From Polytrichum commune (Eukaryota > Streptophyta > Polytrichopsida > Polytrichales > Polytrichaceae), in assembly GCA_950295325.1 (NCBI GenBank), contig OX485805.1, positions 2,852,501-2,916,500 on the forward strand: 64,000 nt of DNA. The letters run 5' to 3'. Made by a program: the position numbers and the translations under genes. Under the pieces are notes generated by a model that was not told the origin of the DNA, ran no database searches, and was given only the letters and a program-made list of their open reading frames with translations. The stretch's first letter is position 1. Each line of letters opens with the position of its first letter. Shown in pieces: positions 3,001-34,554 of the stretch.

Positions 3001-3045
3001 GATGTCGAGAATGGAAATGAAGCTGAAGATGAAGATGGAGAATGA
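1..3045 (+). CDS. DUF7869-like protein, two exons, 5' end outside window
   Basis: Exon 1 is open from the left edge to 1353 and exon 2 runs 1523-3045; the 169-base intron has GT/AG ends and joins in phase (VT|GMIAHG). The first methionine in view is at 27, but the frame is open upstream, so the gene is partial. The first half has a possible metal-binding CSAC motif and a basic helical stretch, then MDHAKTACPC. Exon 2 carries LHVQLNNCAKDNK followed by VGHTHDDIDASFGRWS, the layout I associate with DUF7869 proteins (conserved acid, then H-x-H-D-D-x-D). The first acid, usually D in LQLDN, is N here. The C-terminus is acidic (EAEDEDGE). Function of the family is unknown to me; the many-copy, transposon-like habit of such genes and the repeat array just downstream suggest a mobile-element gene. 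That last point is inference. Confident on gene structure, moderate on family. Confidence 0.7.
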
Positions 3046-7179: not shown

Positions 7180-9142
7180 TGAAGTGGAATATCATCACAC
7201 ACAATATCCGGGGGCTCAATGACCCGGAAAACATTACAAATGAACGATGTTTTATTAACTCCTTAGTACTTAGGGCGGACATCGTCATGCTACAAGAGCA
7301 TAAATTAAGGGGCATGGCATTAGATAACTTAGGATATAGGCTCATGCCGGGATGCACTAGCTGGATCCTTAAAGCGGCACTGGGGAAAGGAGTTGGCTCA
7401 ACCCCAACACGGCGGGCAAAGGGGGGGGGTGGGAATTTTACTTGCTTAGGGTACTATATGATAATGGAGTTGTATAGATCAAACTAGAGGGGGTGGAAGG
7501 GGACAATATAGGAATCGCATGTATCTATGCGAACAGAGTGAAGACATTTATGGCATATTATGGTTGATGCCTTACCTAAGGACTGCGAATGGATCTTAGG
7601 GGGAGATTTTAACATGACAAAAAGGGTGGAAGACAAATCTAATGACTGTGGGAGAGCCGTAAGTGACTTAGAGAGATATACATGGAATGAATTGCTTAAT
7701 GCCTTCCAAATAAATGATGCATTCATCCATCTAAGGGGGCCTAGATTTCTTGGAACAACGGGCAAAAGGGCAGGTACAATGACTTCCTAGGCTTGACAAA
7801 TTTTACACGCCAAAGTATAGTAGGTTAGAGATGAAGCAATTGACATACTTCATTCATGGATACTTGGTGGGATCAGACCACTTGCCGGTCCCACTAGAAA
7901 TATGCTTTGGAAAAGGTGAAGTTAGGAAGTTAGCATTCAAATTGAATGTAGCGCATCCTGGGGGGGGGGGGGAATTGGAGAAAAACTAAAAGAAAAATGG
8001 GACAGTCTACCGAAGGACGCACCCTTCTTCTCCAAACTCAGACATATAACTAGGTATTATAGACAATACAGTAAGTAAAATGCAAAAGAACACAGGTGGG
8101 AGGAGCTTAGTACTAGGGCCAGATTGGAGATAGTAATAGCCAACTTACACAATGATATCTACAATATTGAAAAGTAGGGGGAGGTCAATCAATACAAGAG
8201 TATTCTAGAGGAAATAGAATCAAGGAATGCACGAGGGGCGGTGGTTAGATCCAAGGTTAAATGGCAAAAGGTGGGGAATAAATGTATTGCTGAATTTTTC
8301 AAATCAGTATGGCAAAAGAACACAAAAGCAATCATCTTGGAGTTGCGGGACAACCAGAGTAGATGTTTTACAAAGAAAGAGGAGTTGGAAAAGATGTGTC
8401 TAGAATTTTACAAAAATATCTATCAACATAAGGAAGTTTCGGAATGCACACTTAGAGAATCTCCCAAACACATTTATGGCCTCTATGAATGAAACCTTAT
8501 CACATGAAATTACGGAGAAAGAGCTCTCTTCGGCAATTCTCTCAATTGCTAAAGGGAAGACACCTGGGCACAATGGGATACTGATAGAGTTCTTCCAACG
8601 TTTTTGGCCAACTATTGGTCTAAATTTTTACCAAATGCTACGTAGAGGGGTAGAAGATTGGGCTTTACATGAAGGGGTGAATAAAGGGCTTATCAACCTC
8701 ATTCCAAAAGACGGTGATTCCAAAGACCTTAACTACTGGAGGCCAATTACCCTCCTAACGGCAAGCTATAAAGTTTTTGCTAAAACCCTGTAACTTAGAT
8801 TACAACCCATACTTAGGGATGTGATCAGTCCAGAGCAAATGGCCTTTCTCCCACTTAAGTTTATCTTCAATAATATTGTTCTAGCCCAAGAAACCTTACA
8901 TTGGGCAAAGGTGACTAAATAACCCACAATTTTCTTAAAACTAGACTTCTCTAAAGCCTAAGACAAAGTGTCTTAGAGGCTTCTTTTCAGCACAATGTAT
9001 AGGATGAATATGATTGAGAAATTCATAAAATGGGTTAAATTATTGTTTGAAAACGCCTCGGCCGCTATTAACCTTAATGGCATTCCGGGCAATAGTTTCA
9101 AAATAGGGAGAGGAGTGAGGCAATGTTGTCCACTTGCCCCTT
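7180..9142 (+). pseudogene. LINE ORF2, endonuclease and N-terminal reverse transcriptase part
   Basis: The frame starts MKWNIITHNIRGLND, the usual start of an L1 apurinic-type endonuclease, with ADIVMLQEHKLRG and later WILGGDFNM at about 7590-7620, where the catalytic GDFN box is kept. From 8476 the reverse transcriptase begins with KGKTPGHNGI and LIPKDGDSKDLNYWRPITLL. Further on FLKLDFSKA occurs beside in-frame stops (about 8935-8985), and GRGVRQCCPLAP ends at the insertion point of the Mutator-like element. At least four frame breaks or stops occur. Family assignment is sure; the protein cannot be made. Confidence 0.85.
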
Positions 9143-9235
9143 GAGGGAAGCTATCTTATGAGCGATGAGCAGTGAGCGGTGAGCGGTGAGCAGTAACACA
9201 TGAGCAATGAGCAGTAACATATGAGCAATGATTCC
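9143..9235. repeat. Left terminal region of the Mutator-like element
   Basis: The terminal inverted repeat GCTATCTTATGAGCGATGAG is followed by degenerate short units of GAGCGGT/GAGCAGT and AACA(C/T)ATGAGCAATGAGCAGT. The same GAGCG(A/G)TGAGCGGT words appear inverted at the right end. These short tandem words are probably transposase-binding sites by analogy with other Mutator-like ends. Confidence 0.75.
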
Positions 9236-9359
9236 AAATTTAGTAAAGACACACGGGTTTAGGGTACACAACCAAAATTTTGACAAATTAATTGCATATT
9301 TTCAATTGTAAATTGCCAATATTTTAAATGAAGCACAAGTGAAAGGGCCCTATTTCCAT

Positions 9360-10140
9360 AGATCATTTAAAACACTTTCAATTCATTGCTGATTTTTATT
9401 ATAATAATCCAAACCAATACATGTCATTTATTGACATCCTTATACATGTAGTTACAACCAACACTTGCACAACTACTCACATTCCACAACACCATCAAGC
9501 TCAAGTAGGTGCATAACCTCATTATACGTACATGTAGGTGCCATAATTGTGAGCCACTCAAACTGCTCACGGGTTGAATTAAGGCACATAATCTACAAAT
9601 GAAAGGAAATTAGATATTAGAAATAGTCAATATGTAGGTAACTACTAGGTTTTGAGACATCCGCCTGTGGATGCGAGTTGTGTAAGAGACTGGTATTAGG
9701 TCTGTATCAACCCGGGTTCGAATCCGGTTGGTTACATTGATTGGTGCTATCCCAAATTGAGCTAGTGATAAAGCAGGAATAATTTATAGGCGGATACCAA
9801 GAAGACGTTACTACGCGGATGTGCGTAGAATCTTCTCAATTATTTTTTATTTTTAGAAACTTGTTATTATTTATCCATGTCAATCAATCAAACCGCTCAC
9901 GGTTGGGTCGTAGTCTAAATAGAAATGAAGTTACTGAATCATTTGAAATACTTCCAGCCCATTGCTGATTTTTATTATAAAAATCCAAACAAAAACATGT
10001 CATATTTTGACATTCAAATATATGGTACTTAATAGACCATTTACAATACTACTCACACTCTACAATACCAGCAAGTTCAAGTAGTCGCATGACCTCGTTA
10101 TAGGTATATGTAGGTGCATGAATGAATTTGTTACTCTCGT
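9360..10140. repeat. Tandem duplication of the transposase 3' end
   Basis: The stretch about 9370-9590 is a diverged copy of about 9945-10140. Both contain CATTGCTGATTTTTATTATAA, ACATGTCAT, a TACTCACA block and the last codons of the transposase (CCTCGTTATA / CCTCATTATA). The copy nearer the element end is older or unused; the functional stop is at 10049. A tRNA-like short repeat separates the two copies. Confidence 0.7.
9655..9860 (+). repeat. Possible tRNA-derived SINE
   Basis: GCGAGTTGTGTAAGAGAC resembles a pol III A box and D arm, and GGGTTCGAATCC about 45 bases downstream is a strong B box. A tail of about 100 bases ends in an A/T-rich run near 9840-9855. The T stem does not pair well, so it is not a working tRNA. 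No clear target duplication was found. Moderate to low confidence. Confidence 0.4.
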
Positions 10141-13100
10141 AATCCACCTTGCACAAAAATCTAAACACATAATAAAGATGTTTACAATACACCCATTTTC
10201 CTTTCTTTCCCAATGCATGAGAGGACATTTTCGTGAAATCCGGGCATGTGCAATGCGGGATGTCGCCAATTGTGACATGGTAGGTGATATCCTGCTTGGA
10301 GACAATGTTGATTATCACTCCAAAGCCCGGATATGGAATGGCAGTGACCCCAACCACATAGTAACCCTCCATGAGCCCGGCGCTCTCCCATTTGTTTTTG
10401 TGATCCGCTAGCGGTGCTGTTGGATTACGACGCACTGTCTTTCCAAACCTGAATGTAGGGTGGGCGTCCGGGTTTGGTGGCATAGAAAAATGTGAGCGAG
10501 GGATGGGGAGAGTTGCGATTGTTGAAAGCCTACGACGAGGGGACAATGCCTCCCTTTGCTGTAGTTGAAATCCAGCATCTTCAAGTGCCAAAACCTCCTC
10601 TCGCGATAGATTGGTACCTATCTTCACCGGCCATGTGTTGGGTACTATAGGCCAGTCCAACACATATTTCTTCTTACTGCCACTCACACAACGTTTGATG
10701 TCGTCAGGGCAAAACCAAAATTCATACTCCACATTGTTGGGAGAGCGAAATTCCTTCCTGAGCCCTTTGTATGTTGGAGCAGGTGTGCCATGTTTCCCAG
10801 TCCCGACTTTGGCATTGCACATAGTCCCTGTGATGGCCTGCAGTGCCCAACATCGTTTGGCTGAGTTGGGTGGTAATCTTGTAATGTGCCACTTGGAAGC
10901 AAGATAATCTGTCTCTAACACGGATGTAGTATGAGCCACACCATGAATTGTAGAACTCAACGATTCCTCTATGCGTTGACGAGTTGCTCGGGTGTTCGGA
11001 CGAGGAATGGAATAGTTCACTTTGTCGGGTCGATGAGAGTCACAATCAGCACCCGGTGGTAGGTTGAGTTTGCGTTTGGTGGAACCAAAGAGCTCTGACC
11101 CTTCCAATGCACAATCTCTAGTGTTGACGTCTTCTGCCCCTGGATAAGACTTCATGGCATCGGCCAACATTTTTGGATCTCCACACCTAGCAGCCGCTTT
11201 GAGTTTCAAGGATGCCGAATCAGGACCTTTACCATCAGACCCCTCTTTCAACCATGTCCGGTAATTTGCAATTTGCATGAAGGCACGGATCATGTCGTCC
11301 ACTGTAGCTTCATATAAACAAGTCATCTTGTTGCCGGACTGTTGGAGCCATTTGTTGTGTACAGTCTCTGCAAGGTTGCATGTTGGCATTTCCGCACGCT
11401 CTTCTATTGTCATATCCTATGAACAACACACAAATACAAGGATAAGACAAACATAAGATAGATTATATATCTAGGTTTGGGTCGTTCAACCCAAAATGGC
11501 TGCCACGTTTGGGTCGAACGATCCAAACTGCCTACAAGGTTTGGATCGAACAACCCAAACTGCCTACAAGGTTTGGGTCGAACGACCCAAACTGTTTGTT
11601 ATTTGTTATGTACAGTCTCTGCAAGGTTGCATATTGGCATTCCCGCACGCTCTTTTATTGTCATATCCTATGAACAACACAGAAAGACAAAAATAAGAAA
11701 AACATAGGATATATTACATTGAATAATGAAGTTTGATATGTACTTACAAGTAGCATATGGCCACCCCATTGTCTGTAACGAAAGTGCCAAAATCCCAACC
11801 ACTCTGAAAGGCCAAGGATGCCTTCTTCGGAGGCAGCTCCAGATGACAACCACCAAGAACGAATAACATGGTACTTGGTCTCAGCGTCGTCCATTGTTTT
11901 CGCGTCTTTGTAATCCTTGCATATTTGTTTGTGTTGAAATTGCAAGGATGGTTTGATATACTTTTGGGTCACCTTATCCAAGCTTGCGGACCAATGAAAA
12001 AGACATGTACGCTCACGTGCAACCATGGGTAGACTTGGATCACCATCCCCATAAATCGCCCTCACCGCATTCCAATTAGCTTGAGCACTATTACCCATAA
12101 ACCCTTTGAAGTTTACGTTTGGTACATCATTATCTGCCATGACAGCATTCAAATTTTCCCAAAAGAGAATTTGCGCTGCACCATCTTCAGATTGCATGTC
12201 ACAACACGCAATAGTCAACACTTTACAGTATCGACTGTCGTACACATGGCAAGCCATGGTCGTCCAGTCCTTCAAACGTTTGACATGGTCAAACATAATC
12301 CATGAATTCTCCATATCCCCACCGACTTGCATCCTCTTCACAAGCTTTACACCACTACCTGGAAGGTCTACAGACATCTTAAAAACAAACACTTTGTCCT
12401 TTGACTGCCCTAGGAACCGACTACCATGGACGAATTTGAAAGCAGAATGGTCTTTGAGCGCCATAATACTATCCATAGTTCCCATTCCACTACGCAAAAA
12501 ACGCTTTGATCCAGATACAAAGTTACGACAATTTGGAGAGGCAAGAGTGCTGAATTTGTCCATGACGACCTCTAGGGATGAACCAACAAAGTGATGGCCT
12601 TCGACATTTGCGGGAGATTTGAGAAGGTAATCGGCCAAGAATTGTTTGCTCGCCGCCATAACTATGGCTGAATTTTTTGCTGTGGGTGTTTTCAATACTT
12701 CATTTGCAACGCATTGGTATGCCATGTCCAATGATTCACGGCATGTGCCATTGGCCACAGGGTGATCATGTACACCAAGATGAATGCAAGCCCTAGACAT
12801 TCCAACGGATGTGGAGTGAATGTATATGATTCGAGCATTACACAAAGCAATGCACACAGGTGTGGAACGATATACCTTACATTCGACAGTGGACTTAGTA
12901 GGGGTAACAACACCCACAACAAATGGGATAGGAGTTGAACCGGCCCATTCAGTGTTGTTCCGGAGGCCCCCATTGCGATTCATGTAATCACAGTAGTCAT
13001 TATGACATTGGAGATGACCAGCACAAGTAGAGCGCCGGAAGGACAGTCCAAAGTCATTTTGGATATTCGTGGTTTGGTGGTGTACCAAGGGTGACCGTCG

Positions 13101-13849
13101 CACATCTTGTCCATGCCGTCCATTGAGCGACCATACGTACTTGGAGCTTTGAGTCCCACAGGAGGCAAGAGAAATAAAACATTACCATTAAAAGAAGATG
13201 GTAAGTACTTGACTTCACGAACATCTATATTGTCAAAATCAATGGATGCAAGATCGGACTTTGATCTTTTTCTTGACTTTGTCAGCTTCAAGGCATCAAC
13301 CATAGTCAACCCTGTAGATGAAGGTGAAGGGTGTAGTGGAGGACGTTGAAAAGGTGAGATTTGGGGAACCACCTTTTTGTACATAAGACCGCAAGGGGAT
13401 TTGGCTACACTTCTAAATGGAAATGGCGATGTGTTTGAAAGATCAACAGATGCACAAATGTCATCTTCTGAATCTGATAGCACAAATACACTATCATCAA
13501 GGGGTTCCACCTTAACAAGTGTCATAGAGGGAATTTGAACTGTGGATGTACCGGATTCGTTTGTCAAAATGACAGTTGAAGCTTGCATTTGAGACTCAGA
13601 AAGTCCTATCACCCTAAATGAACCAGGTCCTAAGATCCACATAAAACCAACATCAGTTCTATTTTTTGGAACCAAAATCGTTTCATACACCTCTCCATCT
13701 GAAGAGTACATCTCATGCTCTAAATACATGGTTCCTATCTGGAGGTTGAATCTCAAACTAAGTAAATCCTCTGAAACACTCACATGACCATCATCTTGGA
13801 GTGGCAAGATGAAGGGAACAAAAGATCCATGAGCTCTAATGGTAGTCAT
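10049..13849 (-). pseudogene. Mutator-like transposase with WRKY-GCM1 zinc finger and SWIM domain, frameshifted
   Basis: The start is at 13849 (MTTIRAHGSF). The N-terminal part (to about 13050) is acidic and serine-rich. A one-base frame change at about 13050-13100 is needed to enter the next frame, which reads CAGHLQCHNDYCDY...HLGVHDHP, a WRKY-GCM1-type zinc finger known from MULE transposases. The catalytic region follows (about 12300-11990), with GFMGNSAQANWNAVR and ERTCLFHW. The usual acid before SAQAN is N here. A GT-AG intron (11747-11417) joins HMLL to DMTIEE. The last exon ends in a SWIM finger, CTCPDF...CKH, at about 10260-10185, which probably binds DNA at the element ends. It is divergent from the plus-strand gene of the same element. 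The frameshift and D-to-N change argue that this copy is inactive. Confidence 0.8.
11475..11592. repeat. Four-copy GTTTGGGTCG/CGACCCAAAC palindrome array in the transposase intron
   Basis: Four near-perfect palindromes at about 33-bp spacing have differing central bases (TT, AA) and CTGCCTACAAG-like spacers. A duplicated segment of about 110 bases that includes CAGTCTCTGCAAGGTTGCAT lies on both sides, at about 11345-11470 and 11605-11730. It looks as if the array arrived with, or was copied during, a local duplication at the exon edge. Confidence 0.85.
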
Positions 13850-14690
13850 GGAAAATCAAAAGAACATATGAACAACACATCACAAAAATATGGGTGAATG
13901 TTGCTTTTGTATAGAGTTGTGTGAGGAAATGAATGGAAATGAAAACGTGTGATACAATAATGGATGGAGATGAAAGCGTGTGATACATAGCATCTAATAA
14001 TATAGAAGTGGACATAATACAATAATAGTCAGAGACTATTTACGAGCAAGATATACACAAAACGGCGTCAAATACTAAAAGGATTGGTAGAAATTTAAAA
14101 TATATATGTGTGGACTGACGAAGATGTAGAAAGAATTAAAATTGGTTGGAAAAATAAATTATTGATCATTATGAATAGAACAAAGTAGGTGTCAGAAAAA
14201 TTTGGCGGATATAACAAAAATAAACATATAATGACAAACGCGTTGAAATATCTCGTTCATTGAACGCCAATTACAACATGTGATCGTAATATACGCCGGA
14301 TTTTGTAAGATAGATATATTGGAAGAATAAATGATAGTACCTGATAGAAAACATATCATAGACACCAACAATGGTAGACGATGCAGAGAGAACACCCGTG
14401 AGGCCGAAGAGAAGACGTAGGAAAACTTTGTATTTCACTTCCGAAAAAAAGAGGTTCAAACTTAGTGTGGGAAAGAATGATGCAAAAAAGGAGGGGAAAA
14501 AAAAACTTGTTGAATACGGTAGAAGAAACTGTGAAGACACTGGATTTTGATGCGATGGAGGATGATGAAGGTGCAAAGAGCAAAGAAGATGTAGACGATC
14601 GTATATCAGAGTCCGAATTGAAGACGGGTTCAAAGAAGACGACAAACAAAAAGGTAAGTCAGTTCAATGTTCACATAATTTGATAGTGCA
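13850..14690. other. Intergenic part of the Mutator-like element
   Basis: This lies upstream of the transposase start. A plus-strand frame at 14465-14683 (lysine/glutamate-rich) has no recognisable domain and no partner exons, so I do not call a gene. The sequence is AT-rich and probably holds the transposase promoter, but no TATA box is convincing. Confidence 0.35.
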
Positions 14691-14699
14691 TAAGTTGTA

Positions 14700-15215
14700 A
14701 GTTAGGACGGAGAACCTTGTACGTTCACTCACATGTCATGTAGTAGCAATTTATAGATGTTATAAATTGGAGAGGAGAAACCCTATACGTTAATGCACAT
14801 GGTATATAACAGAAATTTAGGAAGGCTAGAAGTCAGGAGGAGAACGCACAGGGTTTATAAGAGCAACTTAAGAGACGAGAAGTTGGGAGGCGAAACCATG
14901 TGCGTTAACGCACAGGGTTTATAAAAGCAACTTAAGAGGCGAGAAGTTGGGAGGTGAAACTCTGTACGTTAACGTACAGGGTTTATAAGCGCAACTTAGG
15001 AAGACCAAAGTTGGGAGGCGAAACCCTGTGCGTTAACGCACAGGGTTTGTAAGCGCAACTTAGGAAGGCCAAAGTTGGGAGGAGAAACCCTGTGCGTTAA
15101 CGCACAGGGTTTATAAGCGCAACTTAGGAAGGCCAAAGTTGGGAGGTAAAACCATGTGCGTTAGCGCACAGGGTTTGTAAGAGCAATTTAGGAAGGCCAA
15201 AAGTTGGGAGGTAAA
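14700..15215. repeat. About 65-bp tandem repeat with GTGCGTTAACGCAC palindromes
   Basis: About eight units read AACTTAGGAAGGCCAAAG, then TTGGGAGGCGAAACC, then the palindrome CTGTGCGTTAACGCACAG and GGTTT(A/G)TAAGCGC. The first two or three units (about 14700-14860) are diverged; the middle ones (14900-15120) are nearly identical. One unit has the compensated variant GTACGTTAACGTAC, where both arms changed together, so the palindrome itself seems maintained or gene-converted. Confidence 0.88.
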
Positions 15216-15668
15216 ACGACTAGGAGAGCCTAAAATTAAAACAAATATCTATTGTATAAATTTAAATCGATGTTCAGAACATAGGAGCAAAAAAACTATT
15301 CAAAACGAAGTTAGAATGCAAGAAATGACAAATATGACTAGTCAAGTACTCATGCAATACGTTATAGGAGCTAGAAAATGACACAAAATAGCATAAATTT
15401 TTTTTGCCCCGAAACCCAAAATCTACGAGGTGGCCCAAAACAAGGAAATAAATAGAAGAATGAGAAAAGAAAATCATTTCAAACCAAAACAAAATATAAG
15501 AAGAATTTGTAGCTACGGAGATTTAGATAATATAGCATATTTTTGTTTTTTTTTTTGATCCCATTAGCATTTTTTCCAGATTTTACAAGTTTTGGCACAT
15601 CTACGAATTCCAGATTAAATTTTTTTTTAATTTTAAAAATAACGTTTTTTTTCAAATTCACGTCTCGG
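15216..15668. other. AT-rich stretch between palindrome arrays
   Basis: No gene or repeat family is recognised. Long A/T runs, such as the T tract at about 15545-15556, make the short open frames here meaningless. Confidence 0.4.
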
Positions 15669-15892
15669 CCCTGTGCGTTAACGCACAGGGTCTATGTGCT
15701 AACGCACAGGCCTTATGTGCTAACGCACAAGGTGTATGCGGTAACGCATAGTGGCTAGAAAGTTGCTAGCGCAGACCCTGTGCGTTAACGCACAGGGTCT
15801 ACTTGCCTAGCTAGAGGCTTCGCAAAGTTGGGCAAGTAGACCCTGTGCGTTAACGCACAGGGTCTGCGCTGGCAACTTTCTAGCGGCTATGC
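15669..15892. repeat. Nested palindromes: TGCGTTAACGCA copies inside a 147-bp inverted repeat
   Basis: CCCTGTGCGTTAACGCACAG occurs at about 15670, 15777 and 15840, with shorter GTGCTAACGCAC forms between. In addition 15746-15892 forms a large inverted repeat: GCATAGTGGCTAGAAAGTTG...TCTACTTGCC pairs with GGCAAGTAGA...CAACTTTCTAGCGGCTATGC, arms about 60 bases and spacer about 20. Each arm itself holds a perfect palindrome, so cruciform extrusion is plausible. Confidence 0.88.
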
Positions 15893-15937
15893 GGGGCCAC
15901 GAAGAGCCATGCTAAATATGGCTGCAGGGACAAGTAG

Positions 15938-15945
15938 TATAAATT
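15938..15945 (+). promoter_or_regulatory. Candidate TATA box of the ParB/methylase-like gene
   Basis: TATAAATT lies just after the big inverted repeat, followed at about 30 bases by pyrimidine-rich TCTTTTTTCTCTCCTCC, a common plant transcription start context. The first ATG of the gene is about 590 bases downstream, after a probable 5' leader intron ending TTTTAG at about 16525. Inferred from composition only. Confidence 0.35.
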
Positions 15946-16098
15946 GCCACAACCCCAAAGCATTTAGTCTTTTTTCTCTCCTCCGTCGGATCTGAGCTCA
16001 TCGCTGCAAGCTCTCTCATCAACAGGTGCAGTACAAGGTTTGTTTACACTTTCGTGGTGACTGGGTAATTGCGCATAATCAGGCGTAAATTGCGGACA

Positions 16099-16312
16099 GT
16101 TTGGGTCGGCCGACCCAAACTGTGAGTATGGTTTGGGTCGATCGACCCAAACTGTCTACCTAGTTTGGGTCGAACGACCCAAATTGTGTGCCTAGTTTGG
16201 GTCGATCGACCCAAACTGTGAGCATGGTTTGGGTCGTTCGACCCAAACCTCGCGTCCAACTTTGTTAGACCTGTAGTTTGACGCACAGACCCTGTGCGTT
16301 AACGCACAGGGT
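16099..16312. repeat. Five-copy GTTTGGGTCG/CGACCCAAAC palindrome array plus one TGCGTTAACGCA copy
   Basis: The palindromes GTTTGGGTCGGCCGACCCAA, ...TCGATCGA..., ...TCGAACGA..., ...TCGATCGA... and ...TCGTTCGA... lie 31-34 bases apart from 16099 to 16248; the central two bases vary but mostly keep dyad symmetry. CCCTGTGCGTTAACGCACAG follows at about 16289. This is the same word as the intron array at 11475-11592, so the element carries the motif beside both genes. A 5'-leader position suggests a regulatory or transposase-binding role (inferred). Confidence 0.87.
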
Positions 16313-16534
16313 TTGGCCTTGTAGTTTTGGGATGAGCGGCCACCCTAATCGTACAATATTTAAAGGTGCAAATGACTGTGTCTAGAATAATTTTTGTCAT
16401 TCTTCCCTGTGTTCGTGGTATTCTGTTGTTATTGTTGTTGCTATTGCTGTTGTTTTTGTAATGTTATTGCTAATGTGTTGCTACTTGTTTTGAAATATTT
16501 ATAAAACTTATTTCATTTATTTTAGGACCAATCA

Positions 16535-19500
16535 ATGGATTTGGAAAGAACGACTCCTATTTCTACTGATGATGATTCCACAATGCATTCAACTCAAGAT
16601 CGTCCATCTCAACAAGTTCATCATCATCATGACATATTGTCAAATCTTCATAATAAGAAAAAGAAAAAAAATAAATGAATCCCTCGATAATTTTGACTCG
16701 GATGAAGATAATGATGGTGACAATAAAATTTATCAAGAGAAAGTGTGGGAGCTTACGAACAAACGAAAGGTCAATTCCACTTCCACAATTTCTTCAATCC
16801 GTGCTGGACCTAATGCTCGCTTGCGTGTACCCTTGTGTCGCATGGTTCCTATGCCGATTGTGCGTCCTGCTTTGAAGGGTGACATTACTAAATTGGAGGC
16901 TGATTTTTTCAATGGTTATCGTGATGGTGACCGTGTGTTTTATATATCGGCCACCGATTCTAAGGGAAACTTTCAATTCGTGGATGATGAGGTTCGCGCA
17001 TCTTGGAGCCCAAATTGGGCTCAAGCCAATGCCCTGTTTGAATTTCAATTGGATACAAATTTGTCATTGACGTCATACAAGAACAAGATGTTTTTTATAT
17101 GGGATGGAAATCACAGATTTCTTGCTTGGAAAAATTATATTGACCGCGTATATACCGAAGATTATGAACGTCATGTCTTTGTGGATTCTATCATTTTGGC
17201 GCCCGAGCCTGACGACATTCCAAGTTTGTTGACTGCTATGCATGACATCAACAAGTAATGTTCTTACCTATTTTTTTACACTTATTTCTAGTTTATATTT
17301 TTTTTTCCAAATTATATCATCATGAATCTAATCAATTTAATGTTTCTTTTAGGTCAACCGAAAATTCTCACGTATCCACCAATTTGGTGCATACTTTATA
17401 TCGGATGCAAAGTATTGGTACCATGCCTTTGACTTCCTTCCGAAAGCAACTGGATCCAAAGAGTTATAAACGATGTGAGGAGAAGTCCGTTGAAACTTTG
17501 TATTCTTTGACACGACCAATTTTTTGGATTACATGTACAGTGTAAGTTCTTCTACCATTGCTAATATGTGCCTTATGTTTATTTACCTTCATTTTACATT
17601 ACATCTATATGAACTTATAAATATTGACTTTTGTTTGATTTTTCAGCAAGAACTTGCTGAGGCTAGCGATATTGCTTTCAACCAGTACAATGAAATTCAT
17701 CCTCTTGAACGGACATCAGACGGAGTTTCAAAAGCAATGTCCGCAGCTGTCAACAAAAAACGTGCAATGTTATCTTCTAGTTTTACGAAACAACTAGCGA
17801 TTGCCGATATCAACCTTACCTCTACTTTCCTTGAAGAAGTTAAGCACCATTGGGGTTCATTTTCGGTGCCTGAAATGCTACAAGAGAAACTTCATCGTGT
17901 TGCTGTCAGTAATGTGGATGCAGAAGTCAAAGTTGGATGGCTCAAGCTTTGGAATGGCAATAGATTTGACAAAGATGCATTGCATTTTCCGAAATCGGCC
18001 CTCTCTGATTCTGCACTTGATGATTGGTTATCAAAGTCTACATATTGGGCACAGTTGGAAAAAAAGGCTATCGAAGAGCTTCAAAGTATTCTTTCATCTC
18101 CTCTTCAGTTGCCTGCAGATGTGCCTACTCTCTCCGAGTATATCCAAACCTGGAAGTTTGCGGCTTTCAATTCAATATTCTATCGTGAATTCCAAAGCGG
18201 AAAAGTTAAAAAACACAACGGTTGGGATGAACAACCTAATATTGATCTTGCTATGAAACGTGTATTATACAGGTACAACCTAATTTTATTATTTTTTTGA
18301 TTTTTTTGATTCCATTTGTCAAATTGTCATGGAATATTTGACTTACAATATTTTTGTGTATAGGTATTTTCGATATGTTTTGATTCCACATAAATGCGTT
18401 ATAGGGGAACCTCGTTTTTTCCCAAATTGGCGTGACACTGGTGCAGAAGATTCATGCATGTTCACTACTGAGATTTATTTGAATTGGTCACTCCCACACT
18501 ATGAGGATTGTGGTTGGTATCTTGATTGTCCTAAGGATGCATGTCCGTCAAATGAGAAGACAATCCGTCAGATAAATGATGCTAAAAATGTGGATCCTCG
18601 TGATACTGCAATTTTGCAAGTACAAATTGTACAACTTAAACTTAGAGAGCCAGAACCAAAAGAGATAAAACGTCGTAAGAGGAAACATGTTCCTGAAACC
18701 AAAATACAAGATCAATCGGAAATTTCACAACATGAAGAATTGCTTGTTCTTTCCAATGATTTAGATAAGAATCCACTTGGAGGCGAAAGTCAAAGTCTGG
18801 GTGCGATGTATTGGAATTCCATTACTCAAGCACCTATGACGCTATTCATCGTGCGCCAACGAATGTTTTGAGAAAATAGTTATTCATACTGAAGAACTTT
18901 CTCACGCTCTCTTTTGCTCGATCTACTGCTGTCAAGAACAAGTCTGAAGGGGTTGAAGTAGGCCCTCCTGAGTGGATCCAATGGCGGACATTTCTTGAAA
19001 ACGTAAGTATTATTGTTTTGGTATTTTCTGTAATGTTCTTACTTTCATTTGGATTTTATTTTGTGTCTTATATTATGATATGTTGTGGTATTTCAGTTCA
19101 AAGACAATCGCGAATTTCATGTCAGGGGAAGTCCGACTCCATTTGCCGTTGACTTGGTTTTTCTGCAATTTCCCGACGGTCTTGACTTCAACCTCTCCAA
19201 TAGACCTGCTGAAATTCCTCTTTGGAATAAATATGACAAGAACTGGATGGTTGCAACAATGTCCTTGTGCAAGTCCATCTTGTCTGATGATGGCGCCCTC
19301 ATAGTATTTTCTGCTATCGATATGCAAACCAAGAAGGTTTTGAATTCAACCTTACACAACGGCAACATGAAAGTTCTAAGGACTTTTATTTGCCTCAATT
19401 CGTACATGGTGTTCAAGGATCCGGAGTCTCCAACCTACACCGTAAGTATAACATATCACAATTGTTTCTATTTAATTATTTTGGTGTTATTTGCATTGTA

Positions 19501-20352
19501 TATAGTTTTAACACAATTTATATTTTTTTGTAGACTCCGGCATTTATGGCTCATGTCTTGGTAAGGGATTTTACTACCACAAAATCCACGAGACAACCAA
19601 ACTCCACTTTTTTCGGCACTGGATTGAAAAGCAAAAACTTGCTTTTCAATTTTGTGGATGAAAAAAACATGCTTCTTCTAAAATCGGGAAGACCTTGGAG
19701 GGGGCCATATAAAAAATCGCCGCGTTTTTTTTAAGATCTTATTGAATTGTTTACACCATCGAATGGACGCGTTGTTGATTTGACATGTTCCACTGGAGCT
19801 TCTATCCTAGCAACACGCGCATGTGGCAGACATCTTCTTGCATTTGAGGGTGATAATGACATGTTTGAGCACATATTGAAACCGCTTTTGGAAAACGTTT
19901 TGAAAGAGGGGTCATCTAAAGAGAATATACAAGATCTCACAAAAGAAGATGATAACCTCTCAGATGAGGAGATGCTTGAATTTGAGTGTGAGTAAGTTTT
20001 AATACAATAAATTTTTATTCAATTCATTCGTTTCATTTAATTCATTGGTTCATTTTGATTTCTTCACATTATTTACATGTTTCATCGATTTGATTTCAGG
20101 AATACGATTGGAAAGAGGACATGTCTCCCGTTTTGGGCACATAGACAATTCCTACGAAGTCCAAGCCGTAGCCCGCGTCTCCCATCATATGCCGAGAATG
20201 TTGCAATTGCAATGTTGAATCTCGAAGATTCGGATCCAAATGAAGAATCTTGCTATAGTTCCAAAATCAATTCGCAATGCGAAGGTGCTCGAATATATAT
20301 AGATGACGAGGCAAAAGATAGTTTCATGTCTAGTGCTACTACTGATGAATAA
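16535..20352 (+). pseudogene. ParB-like domain fused to N4/N6 DNA methyltransferase-like domain, degraded
   Basis: Exons read about 16535-17254, 17353-17539, 17647-18272, 18364 to about 19002, 19097 to about 19440, 19534-19991 and 20100-20352, with GT-AG borders. The N-terminal region has VPLCRMVPMPIVRP and then MFFIWDGNHRFLAW at about 17090-17130, resembling the GxHR box of ParB/sulfiredoxin-fold proteins. The C-terminal region has AVDLVFLQFPDGLDF, a stretch SILSDDGALIVFS, and finally DLIELFTPSNGRVVDLTCST followed by GAS and GRHLLAFEGDN. The order motif IV then motif I is that of beta-class DNA-amino methyltransferases. Motif IV, normally (D/N/S)PP(Y/W/F), is degenerate, so catalysis is doubtful. 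Damage: a frame change at an A run near 16665, about two or more frame changes at 18800-18960, and an in-frame TAA at 19733-19735. Splicing is strongly indicated; the domain calls rest on motif pattern only. Confidence 0.6.
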
Positions 20353-20479
20353 ATTTTTGGACTTCATGTTGTTTATCCTTCTCAACCCTCTTATTACTAA
20401 ACCCTAAAATCATCATTTTTAAGGCCACAATTCCACAGTTATAGGATATTGGTGGCCCTATTACCAAAATTTTCATCTT

Positions 20480-20570
20480 CCTCACTGCTCATAAGTTACC
20501 GCTCATCGCTCACCGCTCATCGCTCACCGCTCATCGCTCACCGCTCACCGCTCATAAGATAGCACTCCCC
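20480..20570. repeat. Right terminal region of the Mutator-like element
   Basis: Repeated CGCTCACCGCTCAT units end in CGCTCATAAGATAGCACTCCCC, the inverted partner of the left end. The units are more regular here than at the left end. The LINE resumes at the duplicated CTTGCCCCTT. Confidence 0.8.
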
Positions 20571-20766
20571 CTTGCCCCTTATCTTTTCCTCATTATAGGA
20601 GTTGTGCTCACACATATTATCAAGAAAGCGGTAGCCGCAGGGAGGTTAAGAGGGATATTGTTGCCAGGATAGAACAAAAAACAAAACACCTCATAATACG
20701 TGGATGATTCTTCATTCACGATTAGAGGAGATAAGCAATATGTTGACGAGTTGGTCCGCCTCTTTA
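20571..20766 (+). pseudogene. LINE reverse transcriptase, catalytic YVDD segment
   Basis: The frame restored after the target duplication reads LFLIIGVVLTHIIKKAVAAG, then YVDDSSFTIRGDKQYVDEL. YVDD at 20697-20708 is the catalytic box of the L1 reverse transcriptase. Stops lie just before it (TAG near 20669 and TAA near 20694). It ends at the TTA target of the MITE. Confidence 0.8.
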
Positions 20767-21151
20767 GGGCCGGTTCACACTATGGCCAAACTTCGAGAGG
20801 AGAAGCGTTTGGACCAATGAAAATGCAAAAATGTCCAAAGTCTGTCCTCTCGGCCTTCACACTAGAGGCCGAAGTCCAAAGGACGTCGCCTCCAAAAGAG
20901 CCTAGGTGGCAACACTTTTAGGAAGTTATGGCGCCAAGAGTTTGGCCTCTCGAACAAAGTTTGGGTCGAGCAAAATGCTCGACCCAAACTTCCATCGAGA
21001 GGCCGAACTTTTTTTTCATTAAAATATTCAAAATCTGACAGTGGATTATTTTAATATATTTTTTTCAGCCCAAAGGCTTCTCCTCTCGACATAGTTTGGT
21101 CCAAAAAATTGACGTTTTTCCTTTTGACTTGGACATACTGTGAACCGGCCC
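20767..21151. mobile_element. Harbinger/Tourist-like MITE (385 bp)
   Basis: Ends are GGGCCGGTTCACACTATGGC and, inverted, GGGCCGGTTCACAGTATGTC, with the 3-bp duplication TTA (20764-20766 and 21152-21154), as in PIF/Harbinger elements. Excision restores the LINE frame VRLF|KVFSEASGLEINW. The interior folds back: CGAGAGGAGAAGC pairs with GCTTCTCCTCTCG. At 20937-21010 there is a strong hairpin, with arms GGCCTCTCG...AAGTTTGGGTCGAGCA and TGCTCGACCCAAACTT...CGAGAGGCC. No coding capacity. Confidence 0.9.
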
Positions 21152-21838
21152 TTAAAGTATTTAGCGAGGCATCCGGATTGGAAATTAATTGGGAGAAATT
21201 ATGCGCATATTGGTTCGATAAATGCACGTACAAGCCGGAATGGTTTAACGGGTACAATTGATAGTGGGCAGAAGAAGGTGACCTCTCAAAGTTACTCAAC
21301 ACTTCATTCGGGTTGAACCTCAACCCGCATGATGTGGATCGTTTTCTCTATGGGAAAATTGCTAAGAAATTGGAATACTGGAGTACGATGAAACTTTCAC
21401 TTGTTGGGAGAGCAGTCATATGCAATCAAGTGCTACTCTCCACCCTCTGGTTCTTCATCGCGGTGTGGGCGGATCTAAAATCTTAAGCAAAATTAAAGAT
21501 GCAATTCGCAATTATTTATGGTCCGGGAAGGAGCAACTTACCCAAATGAGAGTTAGTTGGAGAGAATGTTGCTTGAAGAAGAAATATAGTAGCCTTGGGC
21601 TAGTGGACCCAGAGGCAACTAAGATTAGCCTCCTATGTAAGTGGATTGTTAAGGCTATGGAACCGGGCGAATTTAATCTACAATTGTTGCTTAGGTATAG
21701 ATTGACTAGGTTCAACCCGCAAAGAGGTCGTAATTGGGGGGTCAGCCTTGACTGGTTTACAAGCAAATTGCACCAAGATTTCCCGGGGTCCAAGATATGG
21801 GACAAGATTAATCTACAAGATTAATAGCACAAATTTAG
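21152..21838 (+). pseudogene. LINE ORF2 C-terminal domain
   Basis: The frame continues from the MITE junction as KVFSEASGLEINWEKLCAYW, then after a frame break NLNPHDVDRFLYGKIAKKLE and YWSTMKLSLVGRAVICNQVL. An open stretch to 21824 contains IRNYLWSGKEQ and LCKWIVKAM, typical of plant L1 ORF2 C-termini. Homology stops at about 21830. Stops at about 21262 (TGA) and 21268 (TAG) and a frameshift near 21470 show decay. Confidence 0.8.
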
Positions 21839-27473: not shown

Positions 27474-30400
27474 ATGGCTAGATGCACACAAGGTGCTCGG
27501 ACATTGTACTTGGTGTTTGGAATGATGAGCAGTTTGTGGAGTCTCAACACTATGCCAATCAACGGGGCTACAAATCCACCAGGTACTACTCAATGGTTGC
27601 AGTAAGTTTCTAAGTTTGTATATTTATGTAGCGAGGGGGTTGTAAAAGTTTACGTCAATCATGACTGTAGTTATAGGCTTCTACCCAATGTAATCTCACC
27701 TCTTGCTGCACAATGCTGTCCTTTGATTGTCATCTTCGCATGAATCAAAATTTTGATATTGAAGTTTTTCCCTTGCTAGTCATATTTGACTGACGAACAA
27801 GTATATTTTCTCCTATGAGTGGCAGGGTTCGTCTACATCGATTGTGGTGCATCAGCTGCATATGCTGACCAAGTGACCGGCTTACAGTGGGTCCCAGATG
27901 ATGGCTTTATTACGACTGGTGTGAACGTTGGCAATGTAACTGTCGACTCGTCTCATTCGGAATTTCCTGAGCTTACAACCCTTCGATACTTTAATGAATC
28001 TTATCCCAAAGATTGTTACAGCCTACCGGTGACACCCAAGGCCAAGTATTTGGTGAGAGCAAGTTTTTATTATGGAAACTATGATGGTGCTTCAACGCCT
28101 CCTACTTTCCAGATGGCAATTGATGCAATAATCGTGGCCAATATATCCACTTCAACAAGTACCTTTGTGTATGAAGAGTTTGCAATAACATCTCAAAGTA
28201 ACGTGACCTATCTTTGCCTTCTAAGAGATTGGTCTAATACAGTGCCTTTCATCTCTGCTATAGCTTTACGACCTTTTACATCATATAATTATGTTATGGA
28301 TGATATCCTTGCTTCTCCTCGATATCTTTTTGTTATTGCGAGGTTGAATCTTGGCGGAGTTGGTCCCATGATAAGGTACGATTCCTCAACTTTGTTGATT
28401 TGGCCATCAAAAGCCACATGTTTTATGTAGTTCGGTGCATTAAAGAGATGACTTTGATAAAAAGAGTCGATGATAAGAACACACATGTCAAACTTGAAAC
28501 TTAATCAACACATTTTATAATTAGTAACTTAATCATCATGTTTATTGAACTCTTTTGATCTATTCATAATTTGGAGGTTAATAATTTCTCCAAACAATCG
28601 AATCTATGTGAATAAAGACTTGATAAATTTTGGCTTGATATTTTCTTTGAAATCCTACGAATTGAATCATTTAGAAACCAATCAATGGGAAATTTTGATG
28701 TTAGTATAATTGTGTAGTTTTAAATTTTTTTAATGGTGGTCAAATTATTTGCAAAAAAAGTCAAATTCGATTGCAAGTTTTTGTAGTGCTCTTAATAGGA
28801 TGTTGTTGATGCAGATACCCGGATGACAAATTTGATAGATATTGGTACCCTGAGAATGTGGATAGTCCATATGTTTCTACAACAACAACATTAACCAATT
28901 TATCCACATCTTATGTGGTGGATAAGCCGAGAACTTACGCAGCTATCCCATCGGTTGTTTTGCAAACTTGTTTGACCGTGACCAGCCTTGGAAACATGAC
29001 AATCTTAAGCAATCTCATTCCCCAAAATGTTGAAGCATATGTGGAATTCCATTGGGCTGAATTGGATCCAAAAGTAAATGCATCCTCAAGACAATTTTGG
29101 GTACAAATACCTTCTTACAATGATGCATATGAAGATACCTTCAATTCTAGCGGGGGACTATATAAGCAAGATTATTGGTTCTTTTGGAGTGTACCTTTAA
29201 CTACATCAACAACATCAACTCCTGAATTTGTATTATATCCAACCCCACAATCTATATTTGGGCCTTCATTGAATGCGTTGGAAATATATGGAGAAACAAA
29301 CAATATATCTTTGACATCCACTGAACTTGATGGTGAATATTCTACTTCACCCAAACTAATTTGATGTAGATGTTAGAATATTGGTGTTGGTGTTAGAATA
29401 TTACCAAAATACATCATGTATTAAGTCGTTGGCATCATCTCAAATATCCATTGTTGATATTTGCAGCTGAGGCTATTGAGGCTATCAAATCAAGTATGAA
29501 TCTAGGAAAATGGAGTGGTGATCCATGTCTTCCGTCTCCTCATTCATGGCTCACTTGTGACAACATTTCACCTCCATACATTCTTGCAATGTAAGTATGT
29601 CTTCTATCTTTCGATAAATCCTAGATATAATTAGAATGCTTAGGTTAATCGATATAATTTGATTCGATAAATAAATGACTTAGCTCAAAAGAATCATTTG
29701 TGTTTTTGGTCTATGATTTGTTTATTCATGTGTATATGTATATGTGCATGTGATTAAACAATCATTGGTTTATTTATGTGCATACTTGGACTTGATTCTA
29801 GTTGTAAACCAATGATATCAAGTGGCCCTCAACTATTTTATGTTTTCATAATACGGAATATCAACTAATAGTTGTTAAAATCAGCTACAAACATTGTATT
29901 ACATGATATTAGGAAGAGAACCTTAATCTTGAAATTTGAGCATACAAAGGTGGTCAATATATATGTTTTGATTGTCATTGCAGAAATCTATCCGGATATC
30001 AATTAAATTCAACCATTTCTCTGAGCTTTGCCCAACTTGTGAACCTCACAAGCTTGTAAGTAACTTTGACCATTTATTTATATTATGTTGTATTTTCTTG
30101 TTGGTGTGATTGAAATCATGAACTATGAGGACTTTTTTGTTATAACCTTGTCATGAAAATTGGGAGTAAATTGTATTTTTAATTTTGATGAATAAAAAAT
30201 ATGATTTAGTATTAGGTTGCTATTGTTGGAATGCATTTATTTTATTTATGCAAAAGATTATGAGTAACTTATAATTAGTGGATGAAGGATTAAACTAGCA
30301 TTATGGTAATTTAGAATATTTTGGCCAAAACTCGACAAAACAGGTGCATGTTGTCATCCTCCGAAACCCCTTGATATTGTGACTTCTTCCCACAACTTGG

Positions 30401-33400
30401 TTGCTGTATGTCATATGTGGGATCTGTTGGTTTTTATTTTCTATCATGTATTTATAACCATATAGTTTTGTGTGTGCATATATTTTGTCTTGTTTGTTGT
30501 CATATAATGACCTTAATACCATTTATTAGTGCAGATTAGCATTTCAAACATCAAATTCAATTAAAGAATTTTTTTGTTATATCTTATTTCTATAGTACCT
30601 ACATCGCATTTTAGTTCCAATGTGAATGAAATTATTGATATTTTTTAAAGTATATTGATGATCATATTACATCCATAAATTGTATGCAGGGATCTATCTC
30701 ATTGTGGATTGTCTGGATCATTGCCGGATCTCAGAACATTGACAAACTTACAAAAATTGTAAGTACGTAAGAATATTCAAAGACGAAAATTTGGATCAAT
30801 TTCAAATGTAAAAACACTTGGCAATTGGCATTGGCGTTTTTGAATGATTGATTGGCATAATTATTGATATAAAAACATGCTATATGTATTTGAAGTAGTC
30901 TGTTCTATGAGTTTTGGTCGTGATTGTCCAAAGATTTACAATAATAACCAAATCAATTAGCTCAGAACCTAACTTATAGTTTTTGTATGACTACATTCTA
31001 ATTTTAGACTTTAGACTTTCATAGAATCCTCAAGTTGTTGATGTAACGACTTGAAAATGCTTTAGCATTATGATGTTAAACTATTCTAAGATATGACTTG
31101 GTATCAACTCATCACTTATTTTTGTGTTTATATGACAGACATTTACAAAACAACACGTTTACAGGATTCCTCCCTGAGTGGTTGACATCATTGTCAATGC
31201 TTACAGAGTTGTAAGTTTAAATGATTTTCACTTGTATATTATGTGTACATAATGGTTGATTTAAGACATGATTTACAGAGTTTGAAATCTAGTTTTGTAT
31301 ACTTATATCTCACCTAACACATTCCAAAAATCAAAATTGTGGGTGCTTTATTCTTATTGTGTTCGTTTCAACTTCTTGGCAATCTAGGTTTGTGGAAAAC
31401 AACAACTTTTCTGGAAAAATTCCTGACAAACTATCAAATACAAATGGTTTAGACTTCAGGTCCTTCTTGACCTTTATCGTGACTTGTAAATATGTTGTAA
31501 GCACTTATTTAAAGTTGACATTGAATTTGACTTACAAGGCATAAAAATAGTATATGTGCATTTTTATTATCATACTTTATTTACATTCAATATTTGAATA
31601 CTTGAATACCTGTGTTGCAAGTCCTATCGTTATAGTCATTTGTTCTAAGTAATAACTTTGTTTTTTTAATGATTATCAAAGGTACATGCCTGGAAATCCT
31701 CTACTTGGCAATGCATGGAACTCCTCTACTTCAACACCACCTCGAAAGCTTGGTGTGATTATTGGTGTTGTTGTTGGGGGTATCATAGCATTAACAATCA
31801 TTTTATTTTTTGTTATATATTTTGTTTGCTTTCATCATCGAACAAATGGAAATAAACATCTTTCACGTATGAATGATGTTCCGATGCCACATTTTTCAAA
31901 GACAAAAGTGCTTGGTACTGGAGGTAAAAATAGACAAACCTTTGCTATAGGAAAATCAAGTAGAATCAACAAAAGCAATTGAGGAATTATTGCGGTTGTT
32001 ATCTTTTGTTTTATAGAAGATCATGATTTGTGATTCGTTGAATTTTTTTTTTACAAAATTGAAGTGTGAAATTGTCTTTACAGTTATGAGACAAGAATAT
32101 TCAAGATGTTTATAGTCTATTTAATAAATTGGGCCATTTCATTGCACGATCTTAATGAACTTGTAAGATGGTATTCTCATCATTCATTGAACTTGATTTT
32201 GTAGGAGCAAAACCTTATTCATTACCAGAGATTGTTACTGCAACTCAAAACTTTGAGAAGGAGATTGGAAGAGGTGGATTTGGCCGTGTATATTACGGAA
32301 AACTTCATGATGGACAAGAAGTGGCCATCAAAGTACTTGATGTTGCCTCTCGGCAAGGGTCAACTGAGTTTTTTAATGAGGTTTATTTTCAATTTTGATT
32401 ACTTTCGAATGATATAACTGACCACAAAAATCCAACACAATTCTATGCTTCGTCAATTGTTTTGTCCTAAATACTAAAAGTATGGTCCTAGTCTTTTATA
32501 ATATTTAGCATCCAAATGATTTTCTAACCAAAACATATATGCATGTACATACTTTGGTCTAGTAGTAACTTTATATTTTTGGTAATTCAATATTTAACAT
32601 AGTGTGTTAAAATAATGCTTTTAGGTATGATGACATTATGTGAGGAATTATATGTAGAGATTCAATTGTTGAACACTTTATACATGGGATTGGTATGTTT
32701 GTTTTGTAGGTTGAAGTATTATCAAGGGTCCACCATAAGAATCTTGTATCATTGGTGGGATATTGCGTAGACGAAGACACACAAATATTGATCTATGAAT
32801 TTATTAGCGAAGGTTCTTTGTTTCACCATTTGCATGGTGCGTATCACTCATGTTCAAAGTATTCGCATAAATTATTAATGATGATAGATTTCAATTTAAA
32901 ATATAAATTTGTAAAGTTCATGTAATAGGGTGAGAGATGACCTCAAACTACCAGATGATAGTGAAGAGGTATCCAAAACCAAATGAAGTGGTTGGCGGTT
33001 CGATTCGCAACCATGAAACCTTTTCTCTACTTGATGAAAAAACTAGCTAGTGCACCATGCGCCTCATGTGTTCCAAAACAACCAAATAAGAAGTTCATGT
33101 AATATGTGTTGCGGTCTCATAGTCTTATTGTAATGTTGATAGTATGCAATGTTGGTGTCTTTAACTTAACTTGTAATCACTAATATATACATGTTTGTTG
33201 AATTGTCGAAAGGAGCCTTAGCATCAACATCTACCCCCCTTGATTGGAAATCACGACTCAATATTGCCATGAATGCGGCACAAGGTAAACCACGTGCACT
33301 TTTTGCATATATCCATATACTGAAAAAAAAATCCTTCAGTTGTGTAGTGAAGAATTTGATGATTTATATTGATCTATTCATTATCGTAGTAATCTAATAT

Positions 33401-34554
33401 GCAAGTATAATGAGCCAAAATCAAATACTATGACAAATATGAAACTAACTTTTGAAAAGCATGAATGAATAGGATTGGACTACCTTCATACAGGATGTAA
33501 TCCAAGTATGATACACCGTGATGTGAAATCAAGCAACATTTTAATTACCAACAAAATGAAATCTGCCAAAGTGTCTGATTTTGGACTTTCCAAATTGGTG
33601 GAAGATCAAGCTGCAACACATGTTTTGACTTGTGTGAAAGGCACGATGGGTTACCTTGATCCAGAGTATGTCCTAACCTTATGCTTTGGTTTTATTTCAT
33701 TACAATACGCAATACACATTAGATGTACATGTTTTTCTTTTCTTTTATTCTTGATGTTTTTTGTGGTTTGTGAATATCATAATTGTGTGCTTGAGCATGT
33801 ATGTCGAATTGAAATCTATTTTGGTAATTGTTTATTGAGCTCCAATCTATCTAGAGCTAGGAGAAGAAAAACTCTTAACTATGTCTCAACCATCAAATAC
33901 AGTTCCAAAATATCACAATGCTCAACCTTCATCATTTGCATGCAGGTATTTTTCCACTCATCAACTATCTCCCAAGAGTGATGTTTATGGCTTTGGTGTG
34001 GTTTTATTGGAATTGATAACTGGACGTACTCCAGTTAATGCAATGGATGAAAATTTTCAAGAGACAAATATTTGTGAATGGGTAAGGGTTTTCTTTCAAC
34101 TTTCACCTCTAATCACAATATATTTTAATGTGCCTACATAATATATAATTATGAAATATGCATTTAAAATCCCAAAACATACGCAAGTTACATATTAAGT
34201 GTATTTTCTCTATATTGTTGAGCCCATTTTGAATGATTTGACAATATGCATTAATGTTGTCTTTATTCTATTTTGTAGGTTCGGAATTCTCTAGAATCAG
34301 GCAACATTGAGAAGATTTTGGACCTTAAATTGCACCAAGCTTTGAGTGCAACACTTGATTCCGTATGGAAGGTTGTAGACATTGCAATGCAAAGTGTGGA
34401 GCCTAAAAGTATTAATAGACCAACAATGCGTGAGGTGGTTGATGAATTACGACAAGCATTGGCCATGACAGATTTTTCACCTCCTACCGTCCACAAAGCC
34501 GCAAATAACTACACATCATCAAGCATCACAACTGATTCAATTCAACCAAGATAA
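27474..34554 (+). CDS. Malectin-like LRR receptor serine/threonine kinase
   Basis: Fifteen exons fit GT-AG borders and sum to 2808 bases (935 residues): 27474-27582, 27826-28375, 28815-29332, 29467-29590, 29984-30055, 30690-30758, 31139-31210, 31388-31459, 31682-31923, 32205-32380, 32710-32836, 33213-33284, 33473-33665, 33946-34081, 34279-34554. Order: hydrophobic signal-like start (about 10-30), malectin-like domain beginning FVYIDCGA (about 37-400), [13 protein letters not shown], short LRRs in 69-72-base exons (about 435-525), a membrane helix [20 protein letters not shown] (from about 553), and kinase (about 620-900). Kinase motifs are intact: [32 protein letters not shown]. It should sit in the plasma membrane and signal from the cell wall or an extracellular ligand; the ligand is unknown. 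The start is chosen because [12 protein letters not shown] joins in phase; a different first exon is possible. Confidence 0.9.
32930..33090 (+). repeat. Possible SINE remnant in a receptor kinase intron
   Basis: GCGGTTCGATTCGCAACC near 32996-33012 matches a pol III B box (GGTTCGATTC). The upstream GATGATAGTGAAGAGGTATCC could be a decayed A box. It lies wholly inside the intron between the exons ending at 32836 and starting at 33213. No target duplication was seen, so this is tentative. Confidence 0.28.

Follow-up and report, generated by a model that had tools for sequence, protein, structure and literature searches.

In a 64,000-nucleotide stretch of the genome of the moss Polytrichum commune (assembly GCA_950295325.1, contig OX485805.1, positions 2,852,501 to 2,916,500; hereafter the window), we find a transposable element with defined boundaries, target-site duplications and related copies, which carries a seven-exon gene whose product is homologous to DNA amino-methyltransferases. 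The catalytic motif of this domain is altered in two distant protein families, and arrays of palindromes lie within the element. Our tentative reading is that the window holds a Mutator-like DNA transposon in decay, whose two genes are divergent: the minus strand encodes a transposase and the plus strand an accessory protein. Judging from its sequence, the accessory protein resembles a phage-type DNA-marking enzyme and has probably lost its chemistry. The element and its ends, in window coordinates, are:

9143-20570: whole transposable element (11,428 bp, 40% GC), delimited by terminal sequences common to copies with unrelated flanks and by the reading frame of the empty site
9133-9142: left copy of the target-site duplication, CTTGCCCCTT
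20571-20580: right copy of the target-site duplication, CTTGCCCCTT
9143-9200, plus strand: left terminal inverted repeat GAGGGAAGCTATCTTATGAGCG, then GAGCGRTGAGC-type subterminal repeats
20481-20570, minus strand: right terminal inverted repeat, reading inward GGGGAGTGCTATCTTATGAGCG, with subterminal repeats

The first-pass annotation had placed a spliced gene inside a Mutator-like element with defined ends; the ends are real, but they lie beyond the interval it gave for the element (16535-20352). A search with the DNA of 16535-18535 (best 40 of 162 candidates scored) returned at least 40 genomic matches including the window's own, mostly at 95-98% identity, and 20 copies with their flanks, the window copy among them, were compared. 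Similarity among these ends rightward by 20571, and leftward it extends past the fetched DNA in most. The same right terminus, followed by unrelated flanks, occurs in 19 of the 20 (it was not found in L022), and all ten further left ends begin with GAGGGAAGCTATCTTATGAGCG, with at most two errors, and are preceded by unrelated DNA. Duplications of 9-10 bp, within the roughly 8-11 bp expected of Mutator-like elements, flank nine of ten left/right pairs, the window pair counted; the pair L037/L024 has none, and L038 was excluded from the pairing, its right partner being absent from the fetched copies. The shared right terminus together with these duplications is more than chance. The terminal inverted repeats are imperfect and about 20 bp long (GAGGGAAGCTATC / GGGGAGTGCTATC), with the subterminal repeats in addition, and Mutator-like is the best label given the 10-bp duplication and terminal repeats. 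Removal of the element and one CTTGCCCCTT restores the reading frame of a long interspersed nuclear element (LINE) reverse transcriptase, GRGVRQCCPLAPYLFLIIGVV.

The LINE-type reverse-transcriptase gene is split by the element into two parts (8404-9142 and 20571-21824), and its frame runs unbroken through the empty site. The terminus was at first taken for a 3' end of LINE type, a reading abandoned in view of the left end and the duplications.

The accessory gene has seven exons with GT/AG introns and encodes a protein of 1,076 residues:

16535-17254, plus strand: exon 1, with an acidic N-terminus and the ParB-like region (open copies have DGNHRFFA, which contains GxxR)
17353-17541, plus strand: exon 2
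17647-18272, plus strand: exon 3, middle region, recognizable in family 2 (below)
18364-19002, plus strand: exon 4, middle region
19097-19441, plus strand: exon 5, with the region of motif IV of the methyltransferase (VDLVFLQFPDG)
19534-19991, plus strand: exon 6, with the region of motif I of the methyltransferase (VVDLTCSTGAS) and one stop in the window copy
20100-20352, plus strand: exon 7 and stop codon

The motifs quoted in the first-pass annotation (WDGNHR, VDLVFLQFPDG, DLIELFTPSNGRVVDLTC, STGAS and GRHLLAFEGDN) are all present, in the order it gave. The spliced frame is open over all 1,076 residues in three of the 20 copies (L015, L019 and L022), although the last acceptor of L015 is non-AG. 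The window copy is itself broken: relative to the majority it has frame-changing indels in exons 1, 2 and 4, in addition to the stop in exon 6.

A second family of the gene was identified at 20 candidate places in the genome, of which nine are almost complete (98-100% identity) and the others, at 82-99%, mostly partial or split. Its protein has 23% identity with that of the window's family (family 1) in the C-terminal half, and it retains the domain order and a ParB-like exon, with the middle region recognizable in exon 3. Related copies had been expected within the same terminal repeats, and at the right end this is the case: in the two family-2 copies read there, the right end matches window positions 20366-20533 at 82% over 168 bp and CACAAGATAGCACTCCCC terminates both, a link between the elements that covers the right end.

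The C-terminal half of the accessory protein matches beta-class DNA amino-methyltransferases by both profile and fold, and motif IV precedes motif I, the permuted order of that class, which bears out the proposal of such a domain. The motif IV pattern of beta-class enzymes, [DNS]PP[YFW], is absent from the copies of both families that were read. Family 1 has LQFPDG in 16 of 19 copies (QFPNG, QFLDG and QFPDV occur once each), its older relative L045 has FQCPDG, and motif I in this family is TCSTG; in family 2, nine of ten young copies have DIPDG. The suggestion that the gene product marks element DNA by methylation fares poorly against these motifs. Since Asp replaces the aromatic residue in two families that differ at about three quarters of their residues, the substitution probably predates the recent bursts, and probably does not reflect chance decay in a single copy. 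Standard catalysis by the accessory protein is doubtful because the change of SPPY to APPA, i.e., of both its Ser and its Tyr, abolishes the activity of the bdelloid N4CMT, as given in the excerpted text of PMC8885841.

Sequence searches returned distant relatives. A tblastn search against phages with a cut-off of E ≤ 10 yielded 70 records, the best of them at 2e-3, and the 20 rows listed comprise 13 annotated methylases, six of a Yersinia phage helicase/hypothetical protein and one unannotated. The methyltransferase part had one weak match in the PDB (DpnA, E 1.1). Protein searches found no homologue of the 1,076-residue protein among 7,987 candidates scored at E ≤ 0.1, and none of residues 726-975 among 769 candidates at E ≤ 1, in searches that are weak on eukaryotes, the host's own copies also being absent from the listing. 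Strong beta-class methylase matches occur at three other loci in the assembly (L042, L043 and L044; contigs C10 and C12, of 47 and 61 kb); those on C10, both with a GC content of 62-64%, point to contigs of bacterial origin within the assembly.

The ParB label given to the N-terminal region has weak support, and we use the term "ParB-like" in preference to ParB. In its favor are the domain order, ParB-like and then methylase, as in prokaryotic proteins, and the presence of GxxR, which is Box II of the ParB fold (PMC12704722, in excerpt), as DGNHRFFA in L019; when the N-terminal 725 residues were shuffled 20,000 times, the pattern DGxHRxxA arose once. Among the PhiCh1 relatives (best 120 of 4,028), at least 120 carry PF01555, and about three quarters of these also carry PF02195. 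The comparison of profiles with phage ParB halves was marginal (probability 1.5%, P 0.035), with the GxxR motif alone aligned, and its score was equalled in 5 of 200 column shuffles. An AlphaFold2 model of exon 1, built from nine close copies, had a predicted local distance difference test score (pLDDT) of 33 and was discarded, and a PDB sequence search with this part returned nothing useful. The one family-2 copy read at the GxxR position, L054, has GNHP.

On the other strand, three open reading frames (ORFs) look like one transposase gene in pieces:

10052-11416, minus strand: second long ORF of the transposase, with a SWIM-like CxC...CKH motif
11664-13181, minus strand: first part of the transposase, with a DDE-like region and a CxxH motif, both recognized by eye
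12983-13855, minus strand: N-terminal part of the transposase, its frame broken relative to the next ORF in the window copy

The match to the SWIM zinc finger (PF04434) has E = 0.079, below the Pfam cut-off, and the Pfam profile of the Mutator-like element (MULE) DDE transposase had no match in the transposase ORFs tested. At one position the window copy has GNSAQANW, whereas ADSAQANW occurs in all three of the further copies examined. Searching with the transposase side yielded 1,358 candidates (40 scored), vs. 162 for the accessory side. Counts of this kind are inflated by repeats, but many elements may be without the accessory gene. The 3' side of the transposase region (9400-10118) appears partly duplicated: in many copies, query positions 1-118 have a second match (77-78% identity), separated by about 0.5 kb from the main one.

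Palindromes of two classes occur in the window, all of them within the element:

14896-16311: eight class-A palindromes CCCTGTGCGTTAACGCACAGGG in the window copy (14-bp core, at most one mismatch)
16101-16246: five class-B palindromes TTTGGGTCGNNCGACCCAAA
11477-11590: three class-B palindromes between two transposase ORFs

With at most one mismatch allowed, these eight class-A and eight class-B sites compare with none in the other 52.6 kb. Palindromes with arms of at least 8 number 13 between the genes, four elsewhere in the element and nine outside. In 18 of the 20 fetched copies there are 6-15 class-A and 3-22 class-B sites; the remaining two, L010 and L018, have zero, and their similarity begins at 16325 and 16373, respectively. 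Genome-wide, class A has 1,212 sites (at most two mismatches) vs. 0 in a reversed control, and among the class-A matches listed (100, all perfect, from the first 39.2 Mb of C1) several arrays share their location with family-1 copies. The 600 bp upstream of the family-2 copy L054 (fetched as L055 and joined to it) have no palindrome with arms of at least 8.

The explanation we prefer, with somewhat less than even confidence, is that the accessory protein is a pseudo-enzyme that serves the element as a reader and anti-silencer or regulator. A SWIM-type transposase would be expressed from the minus strand, and the ParB-like and methyltransferase-fold accessory protein from the plus strand. The ParB-like domain, or the methyltransferase fold as a DNA reader, would bind the palindromes between the two genes; the protein would thereby load on copies of its own element and keep host silencing off them, or regulate both genes, without methyl transfer, a role that may be likened to that of the VANC proteins of Arabidopsis VANDAL elements. 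A more far-reaching version, in which a Mutator-like lineage of plants converted a ParB-methylase of prokaryotic type into a pseudo-methyltransferase for reading its own family-specific palindrome arrays, and so gained self-recognition and anti-silencing independent of VANC, with a catalytic loss that is old and conserved (P-D-G for P-Y-G in two 23%-identical families), is rather unlikely.

Several observations weigh against the pseudo-enzyme explanation. One of the ten family-2 copies, L053, has DIPYG near position 1501, searches with Pfam (including PF02195) and PHROG gave no ParB match for the N-terminal part, and 17 of the 20 fetched copies are broken. The link between palindromes and accessory protein is hypothetical, and the palindromes could as well be targets of the transposase or of some host factor as of this protein: three class-B sites separate transposase ORFs, and in L019 at least one falls outside the element. 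Among the class-A matches listed, the family-2 copies at C1:9.66 Mb and C1:33.36 Mb have none nearby, and the one at C1:9.41 Mb has an array (C1:9,401,158-9,402,698) about 8 kb downstream. The selection signal is also weak. Over 19 of the 20 copies (the disrupted L017 was left out), singletons comprise 308 nonsynonymous and 88 synonymous changes, for a ratio of nonsynonymous to synonymous polymorphism (pN/pS) of 1.37, vs. 90 and 45 among shared variants, for a ratio of 0.78 (Fisher p 0.012). Shared variants in the ParB-like part have a ratio of 0.57 (13 and 9 changes) and those in the methyltransferase part 0.66 (10 and 6 changes); a comparison of L019 with L045 over exons 5-6 gave 0.74. The middle region has 1.11 (51 and 18), with no signal of selection, and stops make up 10 of the 90 shared nonsynonymous changes. 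These counts are weak evidence of past function of the accessory gene.

The gene could instead be a decaying passenger without a present role, with the palindromes being slippage products or transposase binding sites. The broken state of 17 of the 20 copies, the singleton ratio, the shared stops and the class-B sites in the transposase gene are all consistent with this, but it accounts poorly for two 23%-identical families in which the domains keep their order, one exon is ParB-like and the right ends are related, for shared variants that lean synonymous, and for open frames of 577 residues in L052 and L053; we consider it distinctly unlikely. A similarly low probability is given to a catalytically active protein, a DNA amino-methyltransferase whose motif IV departs from the standard and which would mark element DNA with N6-methyladenine or N4-methylcytosine. 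The protein has the fold and motif order of active enzymes, and position 2 of motif IV is variable among its phage relatives, as seen in DPPY in PhiCh1 and DVPY or DLPY in others annotated as methylases. Class A contains GTTAAC and some class-B centers contain GATC, both known targets of amino-methylases. Self-modification has moreover been proposed for algal relatives (PMC12477816, in excerpt). Against such activity are the Asp at the aromatic position of motif IV in both families, the Gln in place of the first Asp in family 1, the TCSTG of motif I, and the loss of N4CMT activity described above.

Quite improbable as well, in our estimation, is a transposition co-factor that would bind the palindromes and assemble or target the transposase, the methyltransferase fold being structural only. 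The location of the arrays between divergent genes would suit this role, as would the loading of canonical ParB at specific parS sites (excerpt of PMC12704722), but some 4-7 kb separate the intergenic palindromes from each end of the element, and the other three are 2.3 kb away from the left end.

The pairing of a ParB and methyltransferase gene opposite a transposase is already known in kind from algae. The Ectocarpus element Sola1-1_Ec32 has, by its description in the excerpt of PMC12477816, a gene for a 1,104-residue ParB and DNA amino-methyltransferase protein on the strand opposite the transposase, but it is a 21.5-kb Sola1 element in a brown alga, whereas the element here is an 11.4-kb Mutator-like one with a 10-bp duplication in a plant. 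The same domain pairing is cited there for green and red algal transposons (to Iyer 2011 and Petroll 2025), with self-modification proposed. PhiCh1-type phage and archaeal proteins (PF02195 and PF01555) have the same order of ParB-like domain and permuted methylase, and alignable methylase motifs, but they are about 420 residues long, have DPPY intact and are without the long middle region. The bdelloid N4CMT (PMC8885841, in excerpt; PDB 8s9m) differs in being a host gene with a chromodomain fusion and an active SPPY. VANC of the Arabidopsis VANDAL MULEs is alike in being an accessory gene borne by a MULE with element-specific motif arrays, which in noncoding parts of the VANC targets undergo rapid change in copy number (PMC5735166, in excerpt). 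The motifs of the moss element differ in being long palindromes. No VANC-type Pfam domain, presumably DUF1985, matched the accessory protein at E ≤ 1.

What is new is the change in motif IV and the presence of the palindrome arrays. Literature titles and the starts of abstracts yielded no land-plant ParB-methylase transposon, a partial coverage that is no proof of absence. The means by which transposons counter host silencing are known in detail for few systems, and the plant transposon families described here have retained a DNA-modifying protein of prokaryotic type after a change in its catalytic motif, together with candidate target arrays. This raises the questions of whether transposon-borne ParB-methylases mark or read DNA, and whether self-recognition by motif arrays extends beyond VANDALs.

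Elsewhere in the window, a DUF7869 ORF (1426-3042; E 1.1e-38) lies beside a 493-residue ORF without a Pfam match, and 27819-33978 holds fragments of Malectin-like (PF12819) and kinase domains of the kind found in receptor kinases of plants, which points to a land plant as the source. Both remaining features are on the minus strand: pieces of a CACTA-type transposase (PF02992, DUF4218) at 43001-44920, and a Gypsy-type reverse transcriptase-RNaseH-integrase ORF of 1,018 residues at 60945-63998.
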